A stretch of DNA of 32,416 nucleotides from contig JAFLUI010000017.1 in NCBI GenBank assembly GCA_022508825.1, positions 1-32,416 of the forward strand, in the 5' to 3' direction. Below the pieces are notes generated by a model. It had not been told where the DNA came from, did no database searches, and saw nothing but the letters and a program-made list of their open reading frames with translations. Origin of the DNA: Oscillospiraceae bacterium. Lineage in GTDB: Bacteria > Bacillota > Clostridia > Oscillospirales > Ruminococcaceae. Each line of letters begins with the position of its first letter. Positions within the stretch are counted from its first letter, which is position 1. The position numbers and the translations under genes are program-made. This document shows, piece after piece, positions 11,308-23,486 of the stretch.

Positions 11308-13563
11308 TTACTTTTTATCAGCGGACAGGAGAAGGAGGTAATCATATACCATCTGTACCGCCTCGGCGCGGGTCACCTTTTTGCTGCCGTTAAATATGCC
11401 GTTTCCTTTGTCTATGAAGCCCTTTGCATAGGCGATGGCAATGGAGCCGATATTTTCATCGGTGCTCTTTACGTCGCTGAATGGGGTCTTGAAAATTCCG
11501 GTAAGCTCTGCGATGCCGCCCTTGTCATAGAACTCGGCGAATATCACTGCTGCCAGCTCTCTTGTAAGGGTACGGGGAGGTTTTGCTCCCTCCTCAACAT
11601 CATAAGCCACTGCATATCCTCCGATAGCGGAAGCAAGGAGATCTCTGAACTCATGATCGGTCACCTCTGCGTTGGGGTCGAATTTATTTTCATAGGACAG
11701 GACGATGCCGTATCTCTGGAGCGTAAGTATAGCCTTTTCCTGCGGGATGCCCTTGATATCCGTATACTTTATATCGTTTGCGGATACCCTGCTGCTTATA
11801 GGCTCGCCGCTCCAGTAGCAGAGCTTTCCTGTTTTAGCGTTAAGATAGAAGCTGTCCATCCTGTAGATCAGATAGGTCTTGACGGAGCCGTTCTTTGCTA
11901 CCCAGCCGTCATAGTAATAATTGAACTTCCTTTGCTGATAAAGCTTGTCAAAAGCCTGCTCGGGAGTGAGGATATCATCCGCAGAGGGGAACGCCGCCTC
12001 AGTATGACTTGCTCTGTATGATGTTACCTCGCCGTTTGAGTCAACACCTACATATATGCCGTCGCCGCTTACCCGGATATCGTTTACATAGCGGTTGTAT
12101 CTGAATGTCCTGGAGGACTCATATTCCTCTGTCTCAACCACCTTTCCGTCAGAGGTCTTTGCTCTGCCTTTCCATACCTGAACAGGACTGTCATTTCCCT
12201 CGTCTGCTCTGTATTCCTTTATGATGTCCTTGCCTAAAGCCTTTGAAGCCTCGTCTGCAGCTGCCTTAGCCTTTGCCACATTCAGTCTGGGAAGCTCGGC
12301 GCCTCTGGTGTATTTGTCCATGTAAATTATCTCTCCGGTCTCCGCATCAAGCTGTACATTTATATATTTGTATCCGTCATAGCTGTTTTTCAGAGCGTCC
12401 TTTATCTTGTAATTTACGGTTATGTAGAATCTTTCTTCTTCCTTCTCCTTATCGGGAGTGGCAGTGCCCTTGTCATAGTCAAGGACCATTATGGGGTCTT
12501 TGACAGTGGAAATATTGTAGCTGTCCAGCGCATAATCATCGGTAAGAGCCACGAATTTGTCCTTTTTAAGAAGCTCTGTTACCTGCTCCTTGGTGAGAAG
12601 ATTTTCGTCCTGCTGGATCTTTTTAAGCTCCGCCTCGGTGAAAATGACTTCATCCTCGCCATATCCTGCATCGGCAGAAGCATCGTCATCAAATTCAAGC
12701 GAATCCTCCGTGACTGCATACATAACGCTGGAAAGTCTTGCTCCGTCAGCGTCTCTCATGTCATCCCAGATGGTAGAGGGCTGTCCTGTGAATGCGTCTA
12801 TCTCGGAAAACATATCGGGGTCATAGACGATACGGGCTGTGACCTTCTTGGTCTTCCAGTCTGTTGTGAGCTTGTAATAGGGAGTGAGGTTACAGAGATT
12901 TTTGTAAGCCTCCTGTATCTCAGCCTCTGTTTTTGCCGTTTTTGGGTCGTCAAATTTTGCGTTGTCTGCCCATGCAAGAGAGAAGCTCTGCAGCTCGCCC
13001 GTGTCCTTGTCGACGGTGACGCTTCCGCGGTTGTCCTTTACCTCCACACCGTTTTCATACCGCTTGATATTTACAGTGGCATTGCTTAAATTAAGGCTGA
13101 AATATCCAAGCTCATATTTTACCTTGTCCGCAACGGACGGGTCAAGCTGTTTTACGTATCCCTTTGCCTTTTCAAGAATCTGCTCCTCTGTGAGCTTTGC
13201 AAAACGTGGCTCGTAGGAATTATTCCTGCCAACGCTGTAATCGTAGCTTACGATGATATCTCCTACAATTGATACCTCAAGATATTTGTACCTTTCCGCA
13301 TTATTCGGAGTAGTCCATCTGAAGGTAAAGCCCTTTGTGCCGTATGCCTGTGAGGTACTGTAATGGAATTCGGTCAGCTCCTCCGGGACAGTCACCCTCT
13401 TTTTTACCGTGGTGAGAGCTGCCTTCATAGCCTGATCGTTCTTGTCGGAGGTGGCTGTCACCGACCCTTGCGCCGCTGCCGTGACCGCAGGAGGCACAAC
13501 AGCTCCCGCCATCATTGCCGCCATAACAAGAGCGGCAGTTTTTGCGATAGTTTTCTTTCTCAT
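11308..13563 (-). CDS. Secreted YcdB/YcdC-domain protein with C-terminal SLH region, paralog 1
   Basis: 751 residues. A Sec signal peptide (MRKKTIAKTAALVMAAMMAG, likely cut after about residue 30) precedes two related alpha/beta modules of YcdB/YcdC type. The first spans about 50-270 (EVSIVGDIIVSYDYS; ENGVEVKDNRGSVTVDKDTG), the second about 340-590 (YINVQLDAETGEIIYMDKYT; YVNDIRVSGDGIYVGVDSNG; YYYDGWVAKNGSVKTYLIY). Residues about 596-751 are S-layer-homology-like (YTDIKGIPQEKAILTL; TPFSDVKSTDENIGSIAIAY; GSKKVTRAEAVQMVYDYL), which should tether it to wall polymers. The binding site AAGGAAGG fits the ATG. It is third in a tandem of paralogs and ends at a strong terminator. YcdB/YcdC-like domains resemble PepSY-type folds; the ligand is unknown. 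Confidence 0.9.
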   Translation of the reverse strand: MRKKTIAKTAALVMAAMMAGAVVPPAVTAAAQGSVTATSDKNDQAMKAALTTVKKRVTVPEELTEFHYSTSQAYGTKGFTFRWTTPNNAERYKYLEVSIVGDIIVSYDYSVGRNNSYEPRFAKLTEEQILEKAKGYVKQLDPSVADKVKYELGYFSLNLSNATVNIKRYENGVEVKDNRGSVTVDKDTGELQSFSLAWADNAKFDDPKTAKTEAEIQEAYKNLCNLTPYYKLTTDWKTKKVTARIVYDPDMFSEIDAFTGQPSTIWDDMRDADGARLSSVMYAVTEDSLEFDDDASADAGYGEDEVIFTEAELKKIQQDENLLTKEQVTELLKKDKFVALTDDYALDSYNISTVKDPIMVLDYDKGTATPDKEKEEERFYITVNYKIKDALKNSYDGYKYINVQLDAETGEIIYMDKYTRGAELPRLNVAKAKAAADEASKALGKDIIKEYRADEGNDSPVQVWKGRAKTSDGKVVETEEYESSRTFRYNRYVNDIRVSGDGIYVGVDSNGEVTSYRASHTEAAFPSADDILTPEQAFDKLYQQRKFNYYYDGWVAKNGSVKTYLIYRMDSFYLNAKTGKLCYWSGEPISSRVSANDIKYTDIKGIPQEKAILTLQRYGIVLSYENKFDPNAEVTDHEFRDLLASAIGGYAVAYDVEEGAKPPRTLTRELAAVIFAEFYDKGGIAELTGIFKTPFSDVKSTDENIGSIAIAYAKGFIDKGNGIFNGSKKVTRAEAVQMVYDYLLLLSADKK

Positions 13564-13616
13564 AAAAAACCTTCCTTTTAATTTATTATAGATTTTATTG
13601 ATTTGAAACGATCATG

Positions 13617-15878
13617 TTATTTACTTTGCGATGACAGTAAAAGTATATGATCGTATATCATCTGCATAGCTTCGGCACGGGTGATCTTTCGGCTGCCGTA
13701 AAATTTTCCGTCTCCCTTGTCAAAGAAGCCATACGAATATGCCACAGTGATGGCTCCCGCATTTTTGTCCGAGCTCTTTACATCGCTGTATGGAGTTTTG
13801 AAAATACCCCTGATATTTGTTATACCGCCGGTGTCGTAGCATCTGGTGAAGATGACCGCTGCCCCTTCTCGTGTAAGAGCAGTCTCCTTCATGACATTTT
13901 TGTCGATATCAATATCGTTTGCCTCCAAGTCCAGAGCTTTTATAAGAAGGTTTCTGAACTCGTACTCTGTTATATCTCCTGTGGGATCAAACTTGCTATC
14001 TTTTGTCAAAACGATATTATATTTCTGCAGCATAAGGATAGCCTTCTCCTGCGGGATACCCTTGATGTCCGTATATTTTACCTCATCGTCTGATTTCTCG
14101 TCCTTTTTCACAGGCACGCCGCTCCAGCTGCATATCTGTCCTGTTTTTGCATTGAGATAGAAGCTGTCCGTTCTGTAGATCAGATAGGTATGTACCGCGC
14201 CGTCCTTTCCTACCCAGCCGTCATAGTAATAATGGAAATCCTGCTGTGTATAAAGCTTGTCAAGCGCCTGATCCGGCGTAAGGATATCAGCGGATGGAAA
14301 TACCGCTTCGGTATAGGTGGAGCTGTATTCCGTAACTACGCCGTTCCCGTCCACTTCCACATATATGCCGTCCCCGTCCACCTGAATGCCGTTTACATAG
14401 CGTGCATATCCGAATGTCCTGGAGGTCTCATAGTGTTCTGTCTCCACGGTCTGTCCGTCCTTAGCCGTCACAGTGTTTGTCCACACCTTGACAGGAGCGC
14501 TGTTGCCCTCGTTTGCCTTGTACTCGCCAAAGATGTCACCGTCAAATGCTTTTGCAGCCTCGGCTGCAGCGGCGCTTGCTTTTTTAACATCAAGCTTGGG
14601 GCGATCACCATTCAGCCCCCATTTCTCCATTGAGATTATTTCTCCCGTTCCTGCATTAAGGTACACATATACCGTTTTATATCCCTTGAATTTATCCTTG
14701 ACTGCGTCCTTGACCTTGTATGTAGCGCTGACATAGAAATTTTCTTCTTCCCTGCTCTTATCGGGATAAGCCACACCCCTTGCATTGTCAAGAACCATCG
14801 GATACTCTTTTCTTGAAGATACTGCATAGCTGCTTACCTCATAGTCATCGGTGAGAGCCACGATCTTATCTTTTTTAAGAAGCTCGAAGACCTGCTCCTT
14901 TGTAAGAAGACTTTCCTCCTGCTGGATCTTTTTAAGCTCCTCCTCCGTGAACATGGAGTCATCACCGTCATCGGCTGCTCCTGCATAGGACGAAGCGTCG
15001 TCATAATCATCATCTGTGATGCCGTAGAGGATAGAAGAAAGCTTTTTGCCCCCTGCTTTGTACATATCCTCCCATATGGTGGACTTCTTTCCTGTAAATG
15101 CGTCTATTTCGGAATAAAAGTCAGGGTTATAGACGATACGGGCGTAGACCTCCCCTGTCTGCCAGTTTTTATTTATAACGTAATAGGGAGTCAGCTTGCA
15201 GAGCTTTTTGAAATCCTCCTGTATCTCAGCCACTGTTCTGGCATTCTTTGAGTCTGCAAATTTAGCGTTATCCGCCCAAGCGAGGGAAAAATACTGCAGC
15301 TCGCCGGTATTTTTATCAAGATACATCTTGCCGTAATTGTCCTTTACAGGCACACCGGTCTCGTATCTTTCGATAGTCACACTTGCCGAATTTGAATAGA
15401 GACTGACATGACCCAGCTCCAGCCTTGCATTATCGCCAATAGACGGATTAAGCCGTTTAAGATGCTCCTTTGCTTTTTTTAGAAGCTCCTTCTCTGAAAG
15501 CTTAGCAAATCCGAATCCGTTCTCCTCCGACTTATCGCCGTAATCATAAGGCTCATAGCTGACAATGATATTTCCCACAATGGAAATATCAAGCTGTTTG
15601 TAAGCTTTGACATCATCAGGAGTATGCCATGTTAAATTGAACGCCTTTGTGCCGTACTCTTCAGCGTTGCTGTAATAGAATTCAGACATCTCCGCAGGGA
15701 TATCCACCCTCTTTTTTACAATGGTGAGAGCCTCCCTCAGAGCCTTGTCGCTTTCGTTGGACTCGGTAGAGACCGTCCCTCCCGACTCTGCCGAGACATA
15801 AGCAGGCACGGACGTTCCCGTCATCATCACCGCCATAATAAGAGCGGCAGTCCTTGCAAGTGATCTTTTCATAGCCAT
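13617..15878 (-). CDS. Secreted YcdB/YcdC-domain protein with C-terminal SLH region, paralog 2
   Basis: 753 residues, colinear with paralog 1 over its full length: signal peptide (KRSLARTAALIMAVMMTGTSV), two YcdB/YcdC-type modules (ETGVPVKDNYGKMYLDKNTG; VYVYLNAGTGEIISMEKW; YVNGIQVDGDGIYVEVDGNG; YYYDGWVGKDGAVHTYLIY) and an SLH-like end (YTDIKGIPQEKAILML; TPYSDVKSSDKNAGAITVAY; GSRKITRAEAMQMIYDHI). AAGGCTTCT just before the ATG at 15878 supports that start; the next Met, two codons on, aligns with the MKRS start of paralog 3 and is an alternative. Only 53 bases separate it from paralog 1 and no terminator is seen, so they should share a message. An acidic insert (DDDYDDASSYAGAADDGDDS) joins the two modules. 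Confidence 0.9.
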   Translation of the reverse strand: MAMKRSLARTAALIMAVMMTGTSVPAYVSAESGGTVSTESNESDKALREALTIVKKRVDIPAEMSEFYYSNAEEYGTKAFNLTWHTPDDVKAYKQLDISIVGNIIVSYEPYDYGDKSEENGFGFAKLSEKELLKKAKEHLKRLNPSIGDNARLELGHVSLYSNSASVTIERYETGVPVKDNYGKMYLDKNTGELQYFSLAWADNAKFADSKNARTVAEIQEDFKKLCKLTPYYVINKNWQTGEVYARIVYNPDFYSEIDAFTGKKSTIWEDMYKAGGKKLSSILYGITDDDYDDASSYAGAADDGDDSMFTEEELKKIQQEESLLTKEQVFELLKKDKIVALTDDYEVSSYAVSSRKEYPMVLDNARGVAYPDKSREEENFYVSATYKVKDAVKDKFKGYKTVYVYLNAGTGEIISMEKWGLNGDRPKLDVKKASAAAAEAAKAFDGDIFGEYKANEGNSAPVKVWTNTVTAKDGQTVETEHYETSRTFGYARYVNGIQVDGDGIYVEVDGNGVVTEYSSTYTEAVFPSADILTPDQALDKLYTQQDFHYYYDGWVGKDGAVHTYLIYRTDSFYLNAKTGQICSWSGVPVKKDEKSDDEVKYTDIKGIPQEKAILMLQKYNIVLTKDSKFDPTGDITEYEFRNLLIKALDLEANDIDIDKNVMKETALTREGAAVIFTRCYDTGGITNIRGIFKTPYSDVKSSDKNAGAITVAYSYGFFDKGDGKFYGSRKITRAEAMQMIYDHILLLSSQSK

Positions 15879-15912
15879 AGAAGCCTTTCCCTTTCATCCT
15901 GATTTTTTACAT

Positions 15913-18153
15913 TTATATTGCCGACCCTGATACAAAGTCAACGTAATCATATATCATCTGCATAGCTTCGGCACGGGTGAGCTTTTTGCTTCCGTTGAAC
16001 CTGCCGTCCCCCTTGCCTATAAAGCCAAGAGTATAGGCTGCATATATCGCTCCTGCGTTTTTATCGGTGCTCTTTACATCGCTGAATGGAAGCTTGGGGT
16101 TTTTCTTAAGCTTTGCAATTACATCCTGATCGTAATATTCCGTAAATATGACCGCCGCTCTTTCTCTTGTAAGATCATCATTTTTAGAGCGCCAATCAAT
16201 TTCCGAATCAGCCAATCGCTCTCCGATAACCTGTTTAAGCAGCTTCCTGAAATCTGACTCGGTTATCTCCCTTGACGGATTAAACTCCTCATAAAACCCA
16301 TCATAATCTGCATCTTCCATTAAGACTCCGTATTTTTTCATAGTGATTATCGCCTGTTCTTCCGGGATACCGCTGATATCTATGTATTCCCCTTTTTCTG
16401 CGGAAACTTCCCTATAAAAAGGTCTGCCGTTAAAGAAGCACAGGTCTCCTGTCCTTGCGTCAAGAAAGAATTCCGGCATTTTATACACCAGATATGTTTT
16501 TACAGAGCCGTCATCAGCCACCCATCCGTCATAATAATAATCCATATCCCTATGTTCAAAAAATCTATCAAAAGCCTCCTCCGGCGCAAAAATATCATCA
16601 GGAAACGCCGCCACAGTATAGGTGGGGTGATACCATGTTATAACACCATTGGAATCGACAGCCACGTATATATCATCTCCGTCGACCCTTATTCCGTTCA
16701 CATAGCGTGTGTATTTAAACGACCTGACGGACTCGTATACCTCTGTTTCAACGATCTCACCATCTGAATTTTTTCTGTTTTCTGTCCGCAACAGCCTGAC
16801 AGGAGCATTATTTTTTTCGTCCGCCCTGTATTCATTCATGATATCTCCGCTGTACGCCTTAAGTACCTCATATGCAGCAGCATCAGCCTTTTTAACATCA
16901 AGCTTTGGACGCTCTCCATTAAAATCTTCCTTGCTCATTGAAAGTATCTTTCCTGTTTCAGCGTCAATCTCAGCATTTATTTTCTGATATCCATTATACG
17001 TTGACCGGAGCTTTTCCTTCAGAAGATATTCAACGCTTATGCGGAATCTTTCTGTCTCGTCCCCTTCCTCTGGATATGCCTTCCCGGCTTTCTTGTCAAT
17101 TATCAGCTTCGGAGCATCATCCGAATGGACCGTATATCTGCTTATCTCATAATCATCGGTGAGAGCGACAAACTTATCTTTTTTAAGAATCTCGGTCACC
17201 TGCTCCCTTGTGATACTGACCTCATCCTCCTTGATTATACTCGTCCATGAGGTGAAAACCGGTGCATAATCAGGGTAATCGTAATAGTCGTCCCCGTCGT
17301 CTTTCTGACCCATAACATCGGAAATGCTTCTTCCCCATGCCTCCTCCATATCATCCGGTAAAGCAGAGGGCTGTGCAGTATATGCATTTATCGGGGCGGT
17401 CATGTCAGGAGAATAAACAACATATGTAGTTACTGTGCTTGACGGTTTCCACTCCTCAAGCTTATAACAGGGAGTAAGCGCATAACGCCTTCTGTACATA
17501 TTACGGATATCGGACTCTGTTTTTGCCGTTTTAGGGTCTGAAAACTCAGCGTTTTCTATCCAGGACAGGGAAAAGCTCTGCAGCTTTCCCGTATCCATAT
17601 CAAGAGAGATGCTTCCCTTGTTGTTCCTTACATAAACGCCGTTTTCGTAACGCTTGAAATTAATTACTGCCGACCGGGTCTCAGGCACATAATGGCTGAC
17701 TTCAAACTTTACATTGCCGTCCATGGACGGATTATACTTCTTTATATACGCCTTGGCTCTTTTGAGGAGCACGTCCTCTGTAAGCTTCGCAAACCGCAGT
17801 CCGGACTGAGCGGTGTCATCGTCGCCTTTTTCCGTGAGCTTATAGCTGAAAATGATATCTCCCAGAACAGTGACCTCAATAGACTTGTATTTCTTTGATT
17901 TTGAGGGAGTATGCCATTCGAGCTTATACCCATATGTATCATTGATATTGCATCCGCGGATGTAAAACTCAGACAGTCCGCTTGGAATGTTTACCCTGCT
18001 TTTTACAACAGCAAGAGCATCCTCCATGGTCATGTCGGTTTCGTAATAGTAGTCCAGCATTCCCGACATAGCCGAAGCCGTGCTGGGAATTGCAGTTCCC
18101 GTCATCATCACCGCCATAATAAGAGCGGCAGTCTTTGCCAATGATCTTTTCAT
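15913..18153 (-). CDS. Secreted YcdB/YcdC-domain protein with C-terminal SLH region, paralog 3
   Basis: I start it at ATG 18153 (746 residues): AAAGGAGAAAGGAACAT precedes it and MKRSLAKTAALIMAVMMTG is the same signal peptide as in paralog 2. The open frame runs 47 codons further upstream, across the likely promoter, so that extension is not coding. It has the same order of two YcdB/YcdC-type modules and an SLH region, but is the most diverged: GCNINDTYGYKLEWHTPSKS in module one, an extra loop before the SLH part (MEDADYDGFYEEFNPS) and FSDVKSTDKNAGAIYAAYTL near the end. It is first in the transcript, 34 bases ahead of paralog 2. Role unknown; surface display is inferred. Confidence 0.9.
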   Translation of the reverse strand: MKRSLAKTAALIMAVMMTGTAIPSTASAMSGMLDYYYETDMTMEDALAVVKSRVNIPSGLSEFYIRGCNINDTYGYKLEWHTPSKSKKYKSIEVTVLGDIIFSYKLTEKGDDDTAQSGLRFAKLTEDVLLKRAKAYIKKYNPSMDGNVKFEVSHYVPETRSAVINFKRYENGVYVRNNKGSISLDMDTGKLQSFSLSWIENAEFSDPKTAKTESDIRNMYRRRYALTPCYKLEEWKPSSTVTTYVVYSPDMTAPINAYTAQPSALPDDMEEAWGRSISDVMGQKDDGDDYYDYPDYAPVFTSWTSIIKEDEVSITREQVTEILKKDKFVALTDDYEISRYTVHSDDAPKLIIDKKAGKAYPEEGDETERFRISVEYLLKEKLRSTYNGYQKINAEIDAETGKILSMSKEDFNGERPKLDVKKADAAAYEVLKAYSGDIMNEYRADEKNNAPVRLLRTENRKNSDGEIVETEVYESVRSFKYTRYVNGIRVDGDDIYVAVDSNGVITWYHPTYTVAAFPDDIFAPEEAFDRFFEHRDMDYYYDGWVADDGSVKTYLVYKMPEFFLDARTGDLCFFNGRPFYREVSAEKGEYIDISGIPEEQAIITMKKYGVLMEDADYDGFYEEFNPSREITESDFRKLLKQVIGERLADSEIDWRSKNDDLTRERAAVIFTEYYDQDVIAKLKKNPKLPFSDVKSTDKNAGAIYAAYTLGFIGKGDGRFNGSKKLTRAEAMQMIYDYVDFVSGSAI

Positions 18154-18238
18154 ATGTTCCTTTCTCCTTTTTATATCTATAAAACGGACATATTTTACCC
18201 CTTTGATATAAATACAACTCAGCTCTCCGATTTTTTTC

Positions 18239-18268
18239 ATTATAACATAAATTTGTATAAAAGTACAA
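18239..18268 (-). promoter_or_regulatory. Candidate promoter of the YcdB/YcdC-SLH triplet
   Basis: Minus-strand TTGTAC (18263-18268), 18-base spacer and perfect TATAAT (18239-18244), followed by a leader of about 80 bases to the ATG at 18153. The region is A/T rich, so chance matches are possible. Confidence 0.55.
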
Positions 18269-18324
18269 TAAGACAAATATTTCTTTGTGCACATCTACAA
18301 AATAGAAATATTTTTTTATTGCTA

Positions 18325-22120: not shown

Positions 22121-22546
22121 TTACCTTATCTCAAGACGCTTTGTTTCGGGAACAGCGGGAGTCTTCTTTGGCAGATTCACAAACAGGATGCCGTTTTTGT
22201 ACTCCGCATCTATCTGCTCGGAATTGATGCCCGAGATATCAAAGCTCCTCTGATACGAGCCGTAGGAGCGTTCTCTGCGGACGTACCTGCCGTTCTCGTC
22301 CTTCTCGTTCTTCTCTGAGCTGCGCTCTGCGGAAAGTGTGAGGAAACCTCCGTTGATGTCCAGCTTGATGTCCTTTTTGTCAAAGCCGGGAAGCTCCGCT
22401 TCAAGGACGAAGCGCTCCCCCTCGTCACGGATGTCCGTCTTGCAGGAATTGACCTGTTTTTCCTCCCCGAAGAAATCTCTTTCAAAATCATGGAATGCGT
22501 TGAAAAGGTTGTAGCTTTTTCTTTCAAAAGGTGTAAGTGCAAACAT
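22121..22546 (-). CDS. hsp20: Small heat-shock protein, Hsp20/alpha-crystallin family
   Basis: 141 residues, normal for bacterial Hsp20. After a short N-terminus (MFALTPFERKSYNLFNAFHD) comes the alpha-crystallin domain at about 34-132: CKTDIRDEGERFVLEAELPG, DIKLDINGGFLTLSAERS, RRERSYGSYQRSFDI and the closing AEYKNGILFVNLPK, which carries the conserved A-x-x-x-N-G-I/L-L core. The tail holds an alternating hydrophobic LEIR end. It is an ATP-independent holdase that keeps unfolding proteins soluble. AGGAGG seven bases before the ATG fixes the start. A CIRCE operator lies upstream at 22865-22891, so the repressor HrcA probably controls it, but a 195-base palindromic block lies between them. Confidence 0.96.
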   Translation of the reverse strand: MFALTPFERKSYNLFNAFHDFERDFFGEEKQVNSCKTDIRDEGERFVLEAELPGFDKKDIKLDINGGFLTLSAERSSEKNEKDENGRYVRRERSYGSYQRSFDISGINSEQIDAEYKNGILFVNLPKKTPAVPETKRLEIR

Positions 22547-22587
22547 ATAAATACCTCCTAAAAATTAATATCATTTTTTCCGTCGTA

Positions 22588-22781
22588 ATACTGTTCTTAC
22601 TCTAAATAATAGACTTTGTCTATTATTTAGAGTGCCGCCTTAACAGGCGGCTGCCAAAACCTATGGTTTTGGCGAGAACGTATTGAACGGCTTCTTAGGC
22701 GGCTATGCCGCCTCGCTGTATACTATGTATACAGCGTCCTAAAACATAGACAATGTCTATGTTTTAGGTTAAGAATAGTAT
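22588..22781. repeat. Block of six perfect hairpins inside an outer inverted repeat
   Basis: The outer arms ATACTGTTCTTA (22588-22599) and TAAGAATAGTAT (22770-22781) pair over 12 positions with one G/T. Inside, in order, are perfect stems: 16 bp at 22599-22633 (loop TTT; its first base overlaps the outer arm), 7 bp at 22634-22651 (loop TAAC), 9 bp at 22653-22673 (loop TAT), 7 bp at 22697-22713 (loop TAT), 10 bp at 22714-22736 (loop TAT) and 14 bp at 22738-22768 (loop AAT). Five of six have a three-base loop closed by C-G. Only 22674-22696 is unpaired. The rest of the gene-free stretch 22547-22871 holds the Hsp20 ribosome binding site and the candidate promoter and CIRCE listed nearby. No coding capacity is seen. 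Confidence 0.9.
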
Positions 22782-22803
22782 AAAGTTATTATTCCCTTTA
22801 CAC

Positions 22804-22832: not shown

Positions 22833-22864
22833 ATAATAAACAAATTGTGAAAATCAGATGAAAG

Positions 22865-22891
22865 TTAGCACTCACCTATTGCGAGTGCTAA
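22865..22891 (-). promoter_or_regulatory. CIRCE heat-shock operator (HrcA binding site)
   Basis: TTAGCACTC (22865-22873), nine-base spacer and GAGTGCTAA (22883-22891) match the CIRCE consensus exactly on both arms. HrcA binds CIRCE to repress chaperone genes. The Hsp20 gene is the only chaperone downstream in the right orientation. The element sits about 320 bases from its ATG and overlaps the last codons and the stop of the preceding gene. Confidence 0.95.
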
Positions 22892-23486
22892 CAAATTCGC
22901 TGCAAGCTGATTGCATATCTGCGTAATTAGATTTGTATGTTACCGTATCATACCCGCCAAACCGCCGGTCAATTCTGGCAAAGGCAATAGTCTGCTTCAA
23001 AGCAGCCGCGCTTGTAGTGATGATTCTTTTTATTCTGTCCTGCCATATCGTATATTCGGTTATAAGATTTTCTATAACCGAGATATATGTGTCCGTTACG
23101 ATAAACTGTGCCATAAGTGACTCGTCAGCTTCAAAGCCTTCATATTCAGACTTTATCCGCTGAGACGTTTCGGACGCCTGCTTAAGCTGTTTCTGCAGTA
23201 CCGTAAGTGTATTAGACACCACGGTACCGTGATTTTTTATCCTTGATATCGACGTCTGCAGGCTTGGAGACAGGTCAGCAAGCTTTCCCCAGTACGCCTC
23301 TATCTTCATGTTATTGAAGTACCCTCCTTTTGTAAAGTCGATCTTGGAGGGGTCCAGCACATTTACAAGCTGTCTGAACTGCTCAACATCCTCGGTCAGG
23401 ACCATTGTTATATTGTCCTTATTGCTGCAGGTGTCTATAGTTTTCTGCAGCTCCATGTTCATCTCGGTCAGTTCGTCCACAAACAT
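22872..23486 (-). CDS. Uncharacterised helical soluble protein, last gene of the VWA operon
   Basis: 204 residues, with no signal peptide or membrane segment. Most of it is predicted helix with heptad-like spacing (TLTVLQKQLKQASETSQRIKS; FIVTDTYISVIENLITEYTI; RIITTSAAALKQTIAFARID). GGGAAGTGAG before the ATG supports the start. It follows the VWA protein gene by 77 bases on the same strand. The order of a two-TM helical protein, a VWA protein and a soluble helical protein recalls XpaC/TelA-type gene pairs, but I cannot match it to TelA by motif, so no function is assigned. The last codons and TGA stop are read from the left half of the CIRCE element. Confidence 0.82.
   Translation of the reverse strand: MFVDELTEMNMELQKTIDTCSNKDNITMVLTEDVEQFRQLVNVLDPSKIDFTKGGYFNNMKIEAYWGKLADLSPSLQTSISRIKNHGTVVSNTLTVLQKQLKQASETSQRIKSEYEGFEADESLMAQFIVTDTYISVIENLITEYTIWQDRIKRIITTSAAALKQTIAFARIDRRFGGYDTVTYKSNYADMQSACSEFVSTRNR

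Follow-up and report, generated by a model that had tools for sequence, protein, structure and literature searches.

A probable family of gene-less mobile DNA elements with a twin-cloverleaf fold in Oscillospiraceae/Ruminococcus-type bacteria

The leader of an hsp20 gene in an Oscillospiraceae bacterium contains a compact block of six hairpins, at positions 22588-22781 of the stretch that we analysed, and the question is whether such a block is mobile DNA, a structured RNA or a palindrome cluster that arose where it stands. The stretch, called here the window, comprises the 32,416 nucleotides of contig JAFLUI010000017.1 (assembly GCA_022508825.1, positions 1-32,416, forward strand), and the bacterium's own genome is denoted G000. 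In our view the block is probably a member of a new family of mobile DNA elements in Oscillospiraceae/Ruminococcus-type bacteria, elements that are about 175-200 bp long, carry no genes and are non-autonomous. A literature search, necessarily partial, did not find a named repeat family of this kind in this bacterial group.

All six hairpins described in the original prediction are present at their positions. The block itself is real as well, but its limits were slightly short, the element proper being 22586-22783 (TAATAC...GTATAA). DNA folding of the region 22570-22800 gave -71.6 kcal/mol, versus -18.6 ± 3.3 kcal/mol for dinucleotide shuffles (z = -16.3, 0 of 200 shuffles), and the minus-strand RNA fold of the hairpin block gave z = -14.3. 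The parts of the window copy, each with the evidence on which it was placed, are the following.

22586-22783, plus strand: whole element, 198 bp, TAATACTGTTC...AAGAATAGTATAA (alignment of 62 copies with common ends; ends tabulated for 76)
22586-22588, plus strand: left TAA, target triplet (left-end TAA in nearly all copies; empty site of genome G001, where ...GTAA adjoins AACG...)
22587-22597, plus strand: 5' arm of stem P1 of cloverleaf I, AATAC-GTTCT with a bulged T, which could also pair with the 3' end (predicted structures, covariation)
22599-22633, plus strand: hairpin H1, 16 bp, loop TTT (covariation; loop AAA or TTT among copies otherwise identical)
22634-22651, plus strand: hairpin H2, 7 bp, loop TAAC (covariation)
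22653-22673, plus strand: hairpin H3, 9 bp, loop TAT (covariation; loop inversions)
22675-22684, plus strand: 3' arm of P1, AGAACGTATT, closing cloverleaf I (covariation, predicted structures)
22685-22691, plus strand: linker GAACGGC, unpaired and conserved, its ACG invariant between subfamilies (alignment)
22692-22696, plus strand: 5' arm of stem P2 of cloverleaf II, TTCTT (P2 99% paired, 3 covarying pairs)
22697-22713, plus strand: hairpin H4, 7 bp, loop TAT (loop not inverted in any close pair compared)
22714-22736, plus strand: hairpin H5, 10 bp, loop TAT (covariation)
22738-22768, plus strand: hairpin H6, 14 bp, or 15 complementary bases counting the innermost pair, loop AAT (covariation; loop inversions)
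22771-22775, plus strand: 3' arm of P2, AAGAA (covariation, predicted structures)
22776-22783, plus strand: 3' tail TAGTATAA, unpaired, complementary to the 5' end (alignment, predicted structures)
22781-22783, plus strand: right TAA, second copy of the target triplet (copy ends; empty site; matched triplets in the divergent copies L269 and L280)

The original prediction had proposed to search the host and related genomes for the block, and this search returned dispersed copies, so the block is not unique. The loci examined yielded at least 76 copies in which both ends are present; full copies are typically 175-200 bp long, start with TAATACTAAT and end with AATAGTATAA. The element has no coding capacity, occurs in many dispersed copies and lies under the size bound of about 600 bp for miniature inverted-repeat elements (MITEs). 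In G000, copies were found on contigs C68 and C157 by genome search and divergent ones on C113 and C173 by a covariance model; the relatives G001, G002, G003, G007, G009 and G025 have several to many copies each. When the genome collection was scanned with a sequence pattern, 88 stretches were returned, mostly true copies, which belong to metagenome-assembled Ruminococcus, Oscillospiraceae and Clostridia genomes; the few matches in other phyla were discarded as chance matches. The covariance (RNA) model, used with strict filters that may miss weak copies, placed the element in 12 of 298 genomes and in 8 of 126 genera of the host's family, most genomes being empty and the carriers being mostly metagenome-assembled. 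The distribution over genera is patchy and of a mobile type. Collections of phages, plasmids and viral contigs gave zero matches to the element.

Some copies are reduced. Two mini-elements, L243 (G000:C195, around 11597-11660) and L259 (G025:C22), have the 5' arm of H1 fused to the 3' arm of H6, leaving a single hairpin between intact element ends, so that the C195 copy is an internally deleted one. Two copies of G003 (L221 and L247) have lost the second domain by deletion between the near-direct repeats GGAATTAGTAT and GGAAATAGTAT. Near another copy, at L056:769-852 on the minus strand, there is a match to the NiCo riboswitch (E = 3e-13).

At the locus of the window copy, two features of the gene have to be considered.

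22121-22546, minus strand: hsp20, with the element antisense in its leader (Pfam HSP20, E = 6e-20)
22864-22892, minus strand: operator of hsp20, upstream of the insertion, an inverted repeat GTTAGCACTC-N9-GAGTGCTAAC that we take to be CIRCE (also present in most relatives' leaders)

On one side of the element lies the CIRCE-linked promoter region of hsp20 and on the other the ribosome-binding site of the gene. When the hsp20 loci of relatives were compared, as had also been proposed, the block was missing from the orthologous leaders of genus-mates, in most of which CIRCE and the promoter region align. The window copy stands downstream of CIRCE in what is presumably the 5' untranslated region, and it would lengthen the leader with a very stable fold; hsp20 transcription would read the element in antisense and include it in the 5' leader as a highly stable segment. 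Any effect of the element on hsp20 expression is putative and incidental. Three further observations concern this locus. The closest hsp20 relative, G002, has no element upstream of the gene and has a copy just downstream of it (L295:2479-2672, corresponding to G002:C26:5478-5671). About 100 nt upstream of hsp20, the leaders of genus-mates (L166-L172) have in common a conserved segment around ACCAATGGGT that contains a tiny open frame, and this segment is missing in the window leader, at the element's place. CIRCE overlaps the 3' end of an upstream minus-strand ORF, 22872-23486, which is without a Pfam match.

The mode of insertion was examined at the ends of the copies. In an alignment read by eye, which gave the only clean empty site, the site ...TTTCGTAAAACGAAAG... 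of G001 corresponds to the filled site ...TTTGTAA[TACTAAT...AATAGTATAA]AGCGAAAG... of G003, so that one TAA became two; further empty sites were sought for 14 loci in 21 genomes and no additional clean one was found. The L118 copy interrupts a coding sequence and, as read from the sequence, skipping the insert together with one TAA restores the frame ACC TAT AAA GGC. The left TAA doubles as the stop codon of the gene upstream in about 17 copies. Dispersed copies, fixed ends and empty orthologous sites agree with the non-autonomous mobile element that had been suggested among other readings.

Concerning the target, TAA is found on both sides of the element and a single TAA when the site is empty, on few data points. 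Read in the orientation of the element, the left triplet of the main family is TAA, and intact copies never have TTA there, hence insertion is locked in orientation. Such a lock is atypical of ordinary terminal-inverted-repeat elements that duplicate their target, and in this respect it counts against our reading; together with the folded shape, it may be compatible with a single-strand route. Two divergent copies have matching triplets of other kinds, TGA/TGA in L269 and TTA/TTA in L280, pointing to a possible 3-bp TNA duplication, although the two triplets are unequal in some copies (e.g. TAA/TAG or TAA/TTA). The ends TACTAATTCC and TACTATTTCC, similar to terminal inverted repeats, match at 9 of 10 positions, but the internal arm pairs better with the 5' end.

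The consensus fold consists of two tandem cloverleaves, each a stem with three hairpins, with the linker GAACGGC and the tail TAGTATAA; precisely, domain I is formed by P1 and H1-H3 and domain II by P2 and H4-H6. In 62 aligned copies, 95.4% of the cells of this two-domain structure are paired and 44 pairs covary. The covariance model and the compensatory-change test that had been proposed at the outset gave 423 double changes, versus 126 ± 9 when shuffled, and the long-range stems P1 and P2 are among the covarying ones. The outer 12-bp inverted repeat that had been described around the hairpins (22588-22599/22770-22781, ATACTGTTCTTA/TAAGAATAGTAT) is present, but it has one mismatch, a G opposite a T. 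The 5' arm has in fact two competing partners, either the 3' end or the internal arm 22675-22684; the internal closure is paired in 93.8% of cells with 5 covarying pairs, the outer closure in 84.8% with 2. The multi-branched wheel that the original prediction drew from the outer repeat is therefore not the fold of the family, its outer helix being weaker in covariation, while in the window copy itself wheel and twin cloverleaf are nearly isoenergetic (-68.2 and -67.9 kcal/mol, respectively).

Among minimum-energy DNA folds, the shape [[][][]][[][][]] was obtained for 58 of 65 main copies, 13 of 17 divergent copies and none of 185 mononucleotide shuffles. The divergent subfamilies (C113/C173 of G000, and those of G041, G176, G180, G310 and G320) have little in common beyond a start TAATACT or similar, the linker ACG(GC) and the end TAGTAT. 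Since the hairpin sequences are unrelated between subfamilies and the fold is kept, it is the shape that is conserved.

The loops of the hairpins change in a particular way, i.e. as a whole, to their reverse complement. By numbers of copies, H1 has AAA in 34 and TTT in 13; H3 has TTT in 12 and AAA in 8, TAT in 9 and ATA in 6, TGC in 6 and GCA in 2, TGT in 5 and ACA in 2; H6 has TTT in 37 and AAA in 14. There are pairs of copies with 0 differences elsewhere in which only the loops are inverted (AAA/TTT), and between L081 and L128 the loops of H1, H3 and H6 are flipped simultaneously. In 29 nearest-neighbour contrasts, with a divergence of 1.8% per site and the pairs of copies not being independent, exact inversions were 10 for H1, 6 for H3 and 5 for H6; at that divergence the chance of three independent substitutions is about 6 in a million. 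H4, the shortest stem, had zero inversions. Judged from these alignments, loop flips appear to be far more frequent than point mutation.

Inversion of whole loops with homogenisation of the arms is the footprint of template switching in replication (PMC8794818; for quasipalindromes, PMC7202029), and both were seen between copies, a signature of the template switching that had been considered for the palindromes. Template switching could account for the perfect arms of H1-H6, and it alone, with no selection on the fold, may be responsible for some of the perfect pairing. The arms of P1 and of P2, about 75 nt apart, are less easily made in this way, and for this reason we additionally infer selection for the fold.

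To explain the mobility, we searched for an enzyme, covering the families Y1, DDE_Tnp_1, RVT_1 and rve. The respective genes were found in 4 of 12 carriers for DDE_Tnp_1, 2 of 12 for RVT_1 and 8 of 12 for rve; both DDE_Tnp_1 and rve are missing in G001 and G002. Y1_Tnp (PF01797) was present in 0 of 7 main carriers (G000, G001, G002, G003, G007, G009 and G025, several of them 96-100% complete) versus 32 of 100 relatives. These four families were rejected as mobilisers, being absent from many carriers. Within this coverage, no transposase with ends matching the element was found in the host or relatives, and a search for an autonomous element through the right ends in G000, G001, G003 and G025 returned full copies, deletion derivatives and chance matches only. 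An insertion sequence of G000, presumably IS1182-like, was discarded as the source, its ends being unrelated. The related genome G053 has 33 matches to Y1 transposase, many cut at contig ends, a recent expansion.

These results bear on the strongest of the alternatives, a classical MITE, that is a DDE insertion sequence reduced by internal deletion, with TACTAWT terminal repeats and a 3-bp TNA duplication, moved in trans by the transposase of the parent sequence, in which the hairpins are incidental. The two ends resemble terminal inverted repeats and the triplets on either side, including the TGA and TTA pairs of divergent copies, are as such an element would have them; nevertheless, the twin cloverleaf is kept between subfamilies with almost no common sequence, insertion in the main family is one-way, DDE_Tnp_1 and rve are distributed as above, the IS1182-like ends do not correspond and the four genomes revealed no larger element sharing the right end. 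We regard this reading as unlikely, although it keeps a real chance.

Much less can be said for a structured RNA, a regulatory leader or small RNA dispersed by chance and with a fold acting after transcription, which we consider very unlikely in spite of the strong RNA fold, the covariation and the 5' leader location in the window. Selection on an RNA tolerates G.U pairs on the transcribed strand. In the 3,808 cells of the seven helices there were 3,639 Watson-Crick pairs, 42 G.T, 50 A.C and 77 others, while G.T made up 10% in nine tRNAs encoded by the same loci; in the helices G.T, at about 1%, is no commoner than A.C, hence RNA-type tolerance is seen on neither strand. Moreover, the loops flip to the reverse complement, the genes around the copies have all four orientations (right neighbour on the plus strand in 43 cases and on the minus strand in 29), the window copy is antisense, the distribution is patchy and Rfam scans of the window and of main and divergent copies gave no credible match and none at gathering score. 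Double Watson-Crick changes, G.T as rare as A.C and inverted loops favour the DNA-level structure that the original prediction preferred over RNA, and the alignments point to stem pairing being kept at the DNA level, including by template switching.

A single-strand element like IS200/IS605 or REP/RAYT, in which a Y1 HUH transposase reads subterminal hairpins, has a slimmer chance still. Orientation-locked insertion beside a short target, the many hairpins and the lack of clear long terminal inverted repeats are what it would show, but Y1_Tnp is missing from the main carriers and there is a second TAA at the filled site, while the known family duplicates no target. A non-mobile palindrome cluster grown in place via template switching, which had been offered as the alternative to mobility, would fit the loop inversions and the perfect arms but is negligible, because the unit inserts whole, with identical fixed ends, at TAA in many unrelated loci, and empty orthologous sites were seen; the dispersed copies with common ends already refute it as sole explanation.

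For the mobile twin-cloverleaf element we propose a mechanism in which a trans-acting enzyme would recognise the folded strand (or a cruciform), the linker and the ends, and insert the element at TAA. Template switching at the hairpins during replication would keep the arms perfect and invert the loops, so that the arms could drift freely and selection for mobility would keep the shape. The 5' end is complementary both to the internal arm and to the 3' tail, and these two exclusive closures could be different steps. In a more far-reaching version, which we consider possible rather than likely, the element would be recognised mainly by its folded single-stranded shape (two cloverleaves, GAACGGC and TAGTATAA) while hairpin sequences turn over, the mover would belong to a class of enzymes that has so far had no connection with small repeats, and the 5' end would switch between two-cloverleaf and closed-wheel forms. 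In a circular or single-stranded form of the element, the junction would read AATAGTATAATACTAAT.

Among known systems, BOX, RUP and SPRITE of Streptococcus pneumoniae are interspersed repeats, BOX being made of boxA-(boxB)n-boxC modules (PMC3049150). As for our element, they are small, dispersed, intergenic and highly folded, with a proposed mobilisation in trans, and BOX is modular; by description, the two cloverleaves, the fixed linker and tail, the TAA orientation lock and a shape kept while sequence turns over set our element apart from BOX. Bacterial MITEs (Correia, ERIC, Nezha) are likewise short, with ends like terminal inverted repeats, duplicated target bases and strong secondary structure, but in our case no matching-end transposase was found, the internal architecture is conserved and the orientation to the target is one-way. 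PATEs derived from IS200/IS605 and REP/BIME with RAYT also have folded hairpins and oriented insertion beside a short target; the element differs from them in that main carriers are without Y1 transposase and the target triplet is on both sides. GC clusters of yeast mitochondria are short palindromic mobile units with AG or ACT duplication, for which the enzyme is not established (PMC4478555); they share palindromes, a tiny target duplication, merger and shuffling, but they are tens of nucleotides long, mitochondrial and without a twin cloverleaf. Template-switch hairpins show the same arm homogenisation and loop inversion, described in RNA genes or reporters (PMC8794818, PMC7202029), whereas here inversion is frequent among the copies of a mobile DNA repeat.

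RNAs commonly conserve shape without sequence, but for mobile DNA repeats this has hardly been described, and the missing preference for G.T argues that DNA itself is the folded molecule. With many near-identical copies per genome, natural template-switch inversions can be counted, and their apparent rate is well above that of point mutation. Twin-cloverleaf elements are abundant in some uncultured gut bacteria, where they are found in promoters, in leaders and at stop codons, and the family is a concrete target for finding a new recombinase. Elsewhere in the window, at 11308-18294 on the minus strand, there are three tandem paralogous genes of about 750 aa each, for similar secreted proteins.
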